Positions 3,401 to 5,453 of a DNA stretch of 64,000 nt are shown here, piece by piece. The translations under genes were made by a program, and so were the position numbers. Origin of the DNA: Protonemura montana (taxonomy: Eukaryota > Arthropoda > Insecta > Plecoptera > Nemouridae); contig OX387608.1 in NCBI GenBank assembly GCA_947568835.1, positions 18,696,535 through 18,760,534 of the forward strand, written 5' to 3'. The notes under the pieces are model-generated. The model was not told the origin of the DNA. It worked only from the letters and a program-made list of their open reading frames with translations, and did not search any database. The stretch's first letter is position 1, and every line of letters starts with the position of its first letter.

Positions 3401-5453
3401 AGATGGTGTCAATGACGCTTCTGCCCTCAAGAAGGTGTGTATTTGTCCTAACCTAACCTAGCCTTACCTGCAAGACCAGGTCTTGACTGAAAGACTGGTG
3501 ACAGAGATTTGCTTGCACAACAACAGTCTCTTGAAATGCACGAACCTACTCTCAGCAAGTTTAACCTGGAGTTTAAATCTCAAGTAGTTGATAATAACAT
3601 GGCAATAAAATGCCTCCCGCATTGCAAGTGTTTTACTCGCGTGTGCTTCAGGCTGAGAATTGTGTTGCTATTTATTTATCACGAGCCCAGCAGCCGTCCT
3701 CTGCATTTCTTCTAAATCTTGTTCAAGTTTTGTTGTTCGTGGGTCCCATGCCACTGCTACATATTCCAACAAAAGTCACAACATTCCCATGCCACTGCCT
3801 CTTCCTATACCTTTGCATCTGTACCCTGTACATTTGTAACCATTACAAACCATAATCTCTCTTTCCAACTATGTTTTTTATAAGGTCTTCCCAATCAGGT
3901 TAGATCTAAGAGTTACCCCCAAGTATTTACAAGTATTTACATACTTAATGTTGAAATTTTGCCCCAGGCTGAGATCGGTATTGCTATGTTTGTCACATTT
4001 GAATTGTCATAAGTTTAATTTTGCCCAAGGCTGAGATTGGTATTGCTATGTTTGACATAAGTTTAATTTTGCCCCAGGCTGAGATTGGTATTGCTATGTT
4101 TGACATGTATTGTTATTTTGCCCCAGGCTGAGATTGGTATTGCTATGTTTGACATAAGTTTAATTTTGCCCCAGGCTGAGATTGGTATTGCTATGTTTGA
4201 CATGTATTGTTATTTTGCCCCAGGCTGAGATTGGTATTGCTATGTTTGACATAAGTTTAATTTTGCCCCAGGCTGAGATTGGTATTGCTATGTTTGACAT
4301 GTATTGTTATTTTGCCCCAGGCTGAGATTGGTATTGCTATGTTTGACATAAGTTAAATTTTGCCCCAGGCTGAGATTGGTATTGCTATGTTTGACATAAG
4401 TTTAATTTTGCCCCAGGCTGAGATTGGTATTGCTATGTTTGACATAAGTTTAATTTTGCCCCAGGCTGAGATTGGTATTGCTATGTTTGACATGTATTGT
4501 TATTTTGCCCCAGGCTGAGATTGGTATTGCTATGTTTGACATGTATTGTTATTTTGCCCCAGGCTGAGATTGGTATTGCTATGTTTGACATGTATTGTTA
4601 TTTTGCCCCAGGCTGAGATTGGTATTGCTATGGGATCTGGAACTGCTGTCGCCAAGTCTGCATCCGAGATGGTATTGGCCGACGACAACTTCTCGTCCAT
4701 CGTGTCCGCGGTAGAAGAAGGCCGAGCGATCTACAACAACATGAAGCAGTTCATCCGTTACTTAATCTCGTCCAACATTGGTGAAGTTGTCTCCATCTTC
4801 CTGACCGCCGCTCTAGGTCTACCTGAAGCTTTGATCCCCGTGCAACTTCTCTGGGTCAATCTGGTCACTGATGGTTTGCCTGAAACTGCCCTGGGCTTCA
4901 ATCCTCCTGACTTGGACATCATGGAGAAGCCACCACGCAAGGCTGATGAATCTCTCATCTCTGGTTGGCTGTTCTTCCGTTACATGGCCGTTGGAACTTA
5001 CGTAGGAGCTGCCACTGTTGGTGCTGCCACCTGGTGGTTCATGTAGGCGCCCGAGGGACCCCAACTTACCTACTGGCAGCTGGTGAGTTTCATTTTATCA
5101 TTGATTGGCTCGATGGCGCTGTCTTTCTCCCTCCACTTTGTCATTCTGCACGTCGAGGTGCTGGCGGTAAGTTGGCAGACCTGGTGGGCTACCGGTATAT
5201 AGGCTGTTAGATCTGCAACTTGACTGACATGTGTTTGTTTATCTCTGCGCAGGGTGTATTCCAAGTAACTCCTCTGGGTGTTGATGAATGGGTCACCGTC
5301 GTGAAATTCTCGCTGCCCGTAATACTGCTGGACGAAACCCTCAAGTTCGTAGCCCGCAAGATCACCGACGGTAAGAGTCTGCTGCTCACGGTCCACTGGA
5401 TCGTGCTCATGTGGGCCGTCTTCTTCGGTTTCATCCTGTATGGTCCGATATAA
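244..5453 (+). CDS. ATP2A: SERCA-type Ca2+-transporting ATPase, 3' part of gene (six coding segments, damaged copy)
   Basis: P-type ATPase that pumps cytosolic Ca2+ into the sarco/endoplasmic reticulum. Segments 244-474, 928-1239, 1522-2194, 3209-3434, 4612-5082 and 5253-5453 follow the SERCA protein in order with matching splice phases. Visible: M3/M4 with the PEGLP motif, the phosphorylation motif DKTGT (1050-1064), KGAPEG nucleotide-binding motif (about 1824), TGDNK (about 2154), TGDGVND (about 3396), M5 with SSNIGEVV, M6 with [11 protein letters not shown]7, M9 and M10. Two faults: a TAG (5044-5046) follows the M7 end WWFM, where the family continues for about 130 residues, and about 60 residues (L7/8 loop, M8 with its Ca-binding Glu, M8/M9 linker) are absent between 5082 and 5101. 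All other segments are open. The first third of the protein lies left of the window. Family assignment is certain; whether this copy works is doubtful. Confidence 0.93.
475..927 (+). other. SERCA intron with LINE tail insertion
   Basis: GT-AG intron (acceptor TTCCCAG at 921-927). It holds a CATGTCATGGT microsatellite at 620-665 and a short LINE 3' end (see separate entry). Confidence 0.8.
635..856 (+). mobile_element. 5'-truncated LINE 3' end with target-site duplication
   Basis: About 220 bp. It contains the end of a LINE reading frame (translating to [18 protein letters not shown] then stop near 690-748), a short 3' UTR and an (ATT)n tail at 834-852. The 20 bp at 615-634 are repeated at 857-876 and bracket it, as expected for target-primed insertion. 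A CATGGT microsatellite lies at its 5' junction. Clade cannot be fixed from so short a piece. Confidence 0.6.
928..1239 (+). CDS. ATP2A: SERCA exon: phosphorylation domain start
   Basis: Starts with the end of [20 protein letters not shown] and includes [18 protein letters not shown], with the aspartate that is phosphorylated during transport. Donor GATGG|GTGAGA at 1239/1240, phase 1 in and out. Ends in the A/N hinge-side sequence ADYEILHEM. Confidence 0.93.
1522..2194 (+). CDS. ATP2A: SERCA exon: nucleotide-binding domain
   Basis: The largest exon. It encodes [18 protein letters not shown] through [15 protein letters not shown], with [21 protein letters not shown] and DPPRKEV motifs of the N and P domains. 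Acceptor TTCTAG at 1516-1521. The donor is read as CGCAG|GCACGT (GC donor) because only this joins AG to the next exon's G to restore CRRIG. Confidence 0.92.
2195..3208 (+). other. SERCA GC-AG intron filled by a 78-bp minisatellite
   Basis: The donor is GCACGT rather than GT; the acceptor is TTGCAG (3203-3208). Nearly the whole intron is a tandem repeat (separate entry). The long open frames across it in several frames arise from the 78-bp period (26 codons) and do not look like a gene. Confidence 0.8.
2203..3186. repeat. 78-bp minisatellite, about 12.5 copies
   Basis: The unit includes CCCATTGAAGATGCCAACCC and CTTGCACCATGCCCTATACC. Copies differ by single bases (GTACAC/GCACAC/ACACAC, GACTCC/GGCTCC). 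The array starts about 8 bp after the splice donor and ends about 20 bp before the acceptor. Because 78 is divisible by 3, frames that lack a stop in one unit stay open throughout, on both strands. Confidence 0.92.
3209..3434 (+). CDS. ATP2A: SERCA exon: P-domain with TGDGVND
   Basis: Encodes [20 protein letters not shown] onward through [12 protein letters not shown] and [14 protein letters not shown], the P-domain hinge with Mg-binding aspartates. Phase 2 in, phase 0 out. Donor AAGAAG|GTGTGT at 3434/3435. Confidence 0.93.
3435..4611 (+). other. SERCA intron ending in repeated acceptor array
   Basis: The first 500 bp are unremarkable AT-rich DNA. From 3957 to 4611 the intron is a tandem array whose unit carries a copy of the real acceptor plus the first coding bases of the next exon (separate entry). 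Confidence 0.85.
3957..4611 (+). repeat. Tandem array of duplicated 3' splice site plus exon start (13 decoy copies)
   Basis: The unit is about 48-49 bp: TTTTGCCCCAG, then GCTGAGATTGGTATTGCTAT, then GTTTGACATAAGTTTAAT or GTTTGACATGTATTGTTAT. The real exon start at 4612 has the same acceptor and the same first 21 coding bases, then diverges into GGGATCTGG. Decoys lie at about 3968, 4023, 4073, 4122, 4170, 4219, 4267, 4316, 4364, 4412, 4460, 4509 and 4558. Two spacer types are mixed along the array, so it grew by more than one step. The oldest copies (leftmost) carry base changes. Confidence 0.92.
4612..5082 (+). CDS. ATP2A: SERCA exon: M5-M7, with in-frame TAG
   Basis: Encodes [20 protein letters not shown] onward, M5 ([20 protein letters not shown]), M6 ([16 protein letters not shown]) and M7 ([20 protein letters not shown]). 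After WWFM comes TAG (5044-5046) where relatives have Tyr or Ala, then in the same frame [12 protein letters not shown] as in the family. The donor CTG|GTGAGT (5082/5083) would be normal. Reading straight through 5083-5100 stays in frame into the next block. Confidence 0.88.
5101..5166 (+). CDS. ATP2A: SERCA M9 segment lacking its acceptor
   Basis: Translates to [20 protein letters not shown] then LA, the M9 helix, followed by donor GCG|GTAAGT. No AG precedes it within the 18 bp after the previous donor, and about 60 residues of family sequence that should come first (L7/8 loop, M8) are absent. This looks like a deletion joining the start of an intron to the middle of an exon, or a collapsed assembly. 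Confidence 0.75.
5253..5453 (+). CDS. ATP2A: SERCA last coding exon: M10 and C-terminus
   Basis: Acceptor CTGCGCAG at 5245-5252. Encodes [20 protein letters not shown], the conserved [13 protein letters not shown]10 ([15 protein letters not shown]) and ends PI with TAA at 5451-5453. Phase 0. Length and end match SERCA isoforms ending shortly after M10. Confidence 0.92.

Follow-up and report, generated by a model that had tools for sequence, protein, structure and literature searches.

How is the start of an exon chosen when that start, together with the acceptor in front of it, stands many times over in the same intron? The question is raised by a SERCA (sarco/endoplasmic reticulum Ca2+-ATPase) gene copy in the window, by which we mean the whole 64,000-nucleotide stretch of the Protonemura montana genome analyzed here (C11:18696535-18760534, lying 110-174 kb from the contig end in a 258-Mb assembly of 34 contigs). 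The first-pass annotation had described tandem decoys that repeat an acceptor and the first 21 coding bases of the next exon, and had stated that splicing must reject or skip them.

We found that the decoy array is real. On the forward strand, 13 tandem copies of the acceptor and the first 21 exon bases occupy positions 3957-4611, upstream of the true exon start at 4612, as had been described. Each unit combines TTTTGCCCCAG, the last 11 bases of the intron, with the first 21 bases of exon 11 and a spacer; the spacers are of two main kinds, in units of 48 and 49 bp. Counted with the real site, GGCTGAGAT[T/C]GGTATTGCTATG occurs 14 times at 3967-4632 (13 times upstream of 4612), with an AG immediately before each copy, successive spacings of 62, 48, 49, 48, 49, 48, 49, 48, 48, 48, 49, 49 and 49, and a TRF score of 1015-1144. 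The decoys do look like plausible acceptors, another point on which the annotation was right: 5 of the 13 match the real site at all 48 bases compared (27 intronic and 21 exonic), and one, with its AG at 4028-4029, has GCCCAAG in place of GCCCCAG. Further upstream in the same intron, a diverged, older 14th decoy (cttcag followed by GCTGAGAATTGTGTTGCTATT) starts at 3652 and runs to 3672 on the forward strand, its acceptor AG correctly placed at 3650-3651; it has 4 mismatches in 23 bases, compared to 7 for the best of 1000 dinucleotide shuffles of that intron stretch. The array-bearing intron had been labeled intron 4; it is the fourth visible in the window, but it is intron 10 of the complete gene.

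When the coding frame is read on from the decoys, a stop is reached after 11-49 codons in all 13 cases. In the annotation, the two unit kinds had been given each other's behavior. A 48-bp unit (TTTGACATAAGTTTA) reads F-D-I-S-L, contains no stop and keeps the frame, whereas a 49-bp unit (TTTGACATGTATTGTT) leads to TGA after 17 codons. The frame is kept in units with ATAAGTTTA and broken in units with ATGTATTGTT.

Judged by its exons and its reading frame, the gene copy that carries this array is a duplicated, subtelomeric pseudogene of SERCA. It occupies positions 1-5453 of the forward strand, with its 5′ part to the left of the window, and its exons are 98.2-100% identical to those of a gene on contig C1 (hereafter the C1 gene). 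Only 214 bases separate the end of exon 3 at position 29 from exon 7 (244-474, 99.6% identical to the C1 gene), so that exons 4-6 are missing. Exon 8 (928-1239) is 100% identical to the C1 gene, and exon 9 (1522-2194) was also matched to it; intron 9 begins with GC, not GT, in both copies alike (2195-2196 in the window) and contains a 78-bp minisatellite at 2212-3189 that does not include the splice sites. Exon 10 (3209-3434) ends at the donor preceding the decoy array, and exon 11 extends from 4612 to 5082 with an in-frame TAG at 5044-5046, where the C1 gene encodes Tyr. At a deletion point (5083-5101), the start of intron 11 joins exon 13 directly at its base 54, so that exon 12 is lost together with bases 1-53 of exon 13. 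The remaining 3′ part of exon 13 (bases 54-118) lies at 5102-5166 and exon 14 with the terminal stop at 5253-5453, all in forward orientation and both matched to the C1 gene.

Compared to the C1 gene, the window copy has 6 synonymous and 8 nonsynonymous codon changes, the stop included. Two of the latter, P71S in exon 10 (TGDGVNDAP to TGDGVNDAS) and A91E in exon 11 (within TDGLPATAL; both in exon numbering), fall in stretches that we take to be invariant in the family. The best solved relatives of the window's exon-9 peptide are SERCA1 and SERCA2 chains. As in other duplicated, unprocessed pseudogenes, introns (7-10 and 13) are kept while the frame is broken, here by the loss of exons 4-6 and 12 and by the TAG at 5044, and a putative intact parent with a complete frame is present at C1:32889161-32901364. 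A reading of the TAG as a recoded or read-through codon was set aside; 3 of 42 genomic copies have TAT, one of them being the complete gene. The window copy is a pseudogene, and its 13 decoys need no functional explanation. Nothing forces a degenerate subtelomeric copy to be spliced correctly, a point that the annotation had missed. The splicing question belongs to the C1 copy, which has four decoys.

The remainder of the window contains further repeats. A 12-kb AGCCA-type pentamer array with a strong strand skew fills 16908-28979. A 52-bp repeat (GTCCAAGTAGCTCAATTGGTTAGAGCAACACCC..., tRNA-like by eye) at 10510-10931 is 83-96% like an array in intron 5 of the C1 SERCA gene. Tandem repeats of 91 bp related to 5S rRNA occupy 40978-41374, 47626-47882, 56700-57748 and 59193-59912, with one full 5S match in the window, at 40978-41098. 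By eye, open frames at 31714-33032, 51351-52553 and 61191-62413 resemble reverse transcriptases of two kinds and a THAP-domain protein.

The window copy is one of many. A genome search with the array gave at least 40 matches (the best 40 of 47 candidates) on contigs C1-C5 and C11-C16, and exon 7 was found in at least 51 places (best 111 of 280 candidates scored). The site of the TAG in exon 11 is present in 42 genomic copies, 39 with TAG and 3 with TAT. All 42 lie at one end of 11 large contigs, on the plus strand where that end is high and on the minus strand where it is low, so that the 3′ end points outward. Their distances to the contig end range from 28 kb to 1.0 Mb (below 600 kb in 39 of 42), the 11 contigs make up 247.6 of 258.5 Mb, and telomere-like repeats are found at 4 of the 11 contig ends concerned. 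This confinement to chromosome ends in one orientation is that of a subtelomeric duplicon. Such duplicons, for example those of humans, likewise consist of gene fragments that recur at many chromosome ends and always face the telomere the same way. Unlike in the human case, the block shared here spans most of an essential ion-pump gene, whose source copy is located in a region of the same type.

The array is present in 41 of the 42 copies. Allowing at most two mismatches, we counted 4 decoys in 22 copies, 5 in 9, 12 in 4 and 13 in 3, and 3, 7 and 10 or 11 decoys in one copy each; the last value is a range, since one unit in that copy (L008) has three mismatches. A unit number varying from 3 to 13 among 41 paralogous copies supports the earlier suggestion that a VNTR had taken in an exon border. 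In all 41 arrays, the final spacing is 49. In the single array-less copy (L064, C13:491698), the beginning of exon 11 has given way to foreign sequence that by eye resembles a retroelement, which explains the missing array. The similar array that precedes exon 13 gave 90 matches in 40 groups (two in 24, three in 13 and one in 3), counted by exact matches only and with groups assigned by hand.

Full exon comparison covered the C1 gene and the 10-kb stretches of L031, L033 and L042; for short loci, an exon called absent is one beyond the stretch compared. L031 and L033 have two stops each, and L031 also has a one-base gap. In one copy, L032 on C15, the left border of the copied block lies in intron 1, where another subtelomeric sequence joins. 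At about position 1433 of L032, the sequence to the left of the SERCA block terminates in the very letters with which contig C3 (L083) ends, and these shared letters hint at a larger repeated subtelomeric unit. When SERCA outside the subtelomeres was sought with an A-domain query, the best candidates scored comprised only the subtelomeric copies and two weak matches, one at C11:15.2 Mb with 43% identity and the other at C2:16.1 Mb with 46%.

Across 22 contig ends examined, we observed TTTGG repeats at three, TTAGG repeats at two and N at three, the telomere-like ends being C1 high, C11 high and C13 low; C12 high and C16 low (L067, L068, L071, L077 and L089). A TTTGG run also occurs internally at C1:26.8 Mb. 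Two telomere-like motifs within one genome are unusual. TTTGG has been named as the telomere motif of the rice weevil; the TTAGG repeats would fit the arthropod-like look of the SERCA protein.

The C1 gene (C1:32889161-32901364, about 221 kb from the end of contig C1) has 14 exons with a 3063-nt SERCA frame, stop included, that encodes 1,020 amino acids without an internal stop. Its 13 introns comprise 12 GT-AG and one GC-AG. Exon 1 with its ATG has a single match in the genome, at C1:32889161, as do the 292 bases of intron 1 that follow it. On these features, we infer that this is the expressed SERCA gene. Another copy on the same contig, L042 (C1:33.00 Mb), has exons 2-14 without stops, with 10 nonsynonymous versus 6 synonymous changes; what sets the gene at 32.89 Mb apart from it is mainly exon 1 and a smaller number of odd substitutions.

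The same kind of decoy stands twice in the C1 gene. Four acceptors (32899620, 32899668, 32899717 and 32899766) precede the real exon-11 acceptor at 32899815; the last of them is identical to the real site over 48 bases, and each, if used, would lead to a stop after 17-33 codons. Exon 13, whose real acceptor is at 32900960, is preceded by two more decoys at 32900829 and 32900873. These consist of TTTTGTTTCAG and 14 exon bases; one matches the real site throughout 25 intronic bases, and both lead to stops. Tandem arrays of some kind occur in 7 of the 13 introns, and 5 of these do not touch a splice border, a pattern suggesting that the gene is generally prone to form minisatellites.

A full-length pump from the C1 gene would require that splicing pass over the four decoys at exon 11 and two more at exon 13. 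As the last C1 decoy and the real site share all 48 bases compared, the choice between them cannot rest on local sequence; the two differ in what comes after, namely the exon body and its donor. The last acceptor, as the only one directly before the exon body and the one nearest the exon's own donor, would likely be defined as the exon start, and is probably the one used. Under exon definition, sites closest across an exon tend to pair, according to PMC9225289, and this favors the last acceptor at exon 11. For competing 3′ sites, the same paper describes an upstream preference that exon definition only reduced and did not reverse (PMC9225289). At exon 13, the short intron 12 (251 nt to the real site, 120 and 164 nt to the decoys) together with intron definition would favor the upstream decoys. 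Consequently, with an upstream preference that is weakened rather than reversed and a short intron at exon 13, the exon-definition rule does not settle the choice. An RNA structure that hides the decoys was rejected as an explanation, since the C1 array folds no better than shuffled sequences (z = +1.33; 189 of 200 shuffles at least as stable). A search for a retrocopy with the exon 10/11 junction gave no match in the genome (41-base query, up to 3 mismatches); the query spans 17 bases of exon 11 and by itself could not tell the acceptors apart.

By the composition of its units, the array is a further case of the mirage minisatellites already described in lancelets: each tandem unit holds an intron end and an exon start, in the window as well as at exons 11 and 13 of the C1 gene, and unit number varies, here among paralogues of one assembly. 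In the lancelet accounts, Adh3, the globin genes BflGb6 and BflGb9, troponin C and PGBD5 likewise have tandem units that straddle an intron-exon border; most units show a splice signal that looks intact, length varies and the authentic exon ends the cluster (PMC3087553, PMC3902484). According to the same accounts, these border duplications appear not to disturb mRNA splicing, which was checked there by RT-PCR, whereas the array described here is known from genomic sequence. Our case also differs in that it affects the SERCA gene of another animal, with two arrays in one gene and copies over many chromosome ends. Human internal tandem repeats in segmental-duplication genes similarly differ in repeat number between recent paralogous copies, and those at an exon-intron border can affect splicing, according to PMC2812944; unlike these repeats, which are described there as mostly coding and accompanied by new introns, the repeats here precede the exon, and no new intron is seen. 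No earlier report of a mirage array in SERCA was found in the literature searched for mirages and subtelomeric duplicons.

Our preferred explanation, which we hold with good confidence, is that a mirage-type minisatellite caught an exon border in a working gene and lengthened in some of its dead subtelomeric copies. The array would have formed by a tandem duplication spanning the intron-exon border, in the C1 SERCA gene or before it. Such a duplication costs little if the last acceptor copy is used, because the protein is unchanged. Copies without exon 1 would then have reached subtelomeric positions on the other large contigs and decayed, and some of these dead copies would have expanded their arrays to 10-13 decoys from the usual 4-5. 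Breakage within intron 1 and subsequent copying as far as the chromosome end may account for 5′-truncated copies with their 3′ ends outward; all copies except one seem to lack exon 1, and their spread probably proceeded by exchange between chromosome ends. What we observed in support is the array itself, its presence in 41 of 42 copies, the range of copy numbers, the decay of the window copy and the single complete frame.

The decoys could instead be a regulatory device, in which their number or use sends part of the SERCA transcripts to nonsense-mediated decay and thereby sets output, as the annotation had suggested alongside a tuning of acceptor choice by spacer length. We regard this as unlikely, even though the C1 gene has kept its decoys, every decoy would give a stop if used (11-49 codons on in the window, 17-33 codons on in the C1 gene) and some use of decoys is plausible given that the last one matches the real site locally. 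Decoy number is not constant among the copies, most of which are dead, and arrays in 7 of 13 introns, 5 of them off any splice border, point to a general minisatellite tendency; the lancelet reports, moreover, describe mirages as harmless to splicing. A more specific form, which we consider very unlikely, would have the two C1 arrays at exons 11 and 13 act jointly as a length-dependent brake, with more decoys causing more nonsense-mediated decay and unequal exchange with the dead copies (3-13 decoys) supplying stronger or weaker alleles. If true, the brake and the exchange would give the population a ready supply of alleles for an essential calcium pump.

Two other explanations concern the copies themselves. 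Near-identical copies (98-100% in exons) in repeat-rich contig ends, where assemblies err, and N at three of the examined ends might suggest that the array or the dispersed copies arose from collapsed or misjoined repeats. This is highly improbable, given that the 41 arrays have copy-specific spacings and substitutions, that their flanks differ and that ordinary copies hold just 4-5 units, easily spanned by reads. It is scarcely credible that the window copy is itself an expressed SERCA gene coping with 13 decoys: it agrees with the C1 gene at 98-100% in exons 7-11 and 14 and has kept its splice sites, but exons 4-6, 12 and part of 13 are absent, exon 11 contains the TAG and exon 1 is found on C1 only.

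The phenomenon is of interest mainly because a functional-looking copy carries two mirage arrays and because one duplicated splice border is present across the genome as a natural dose series, from 3 to 13 decoys among 41 copies. With the last decoy equal to the true site over 48 bases, the C1 gene provides a clean natural test of how the spliceosome chooses among equal acceptors. With this finding, an essential ion-pump gene joins the few in which mirage arrays are known; the case also shows a gene fragment copied to many chromosome ends while its apparent parent stays among them.
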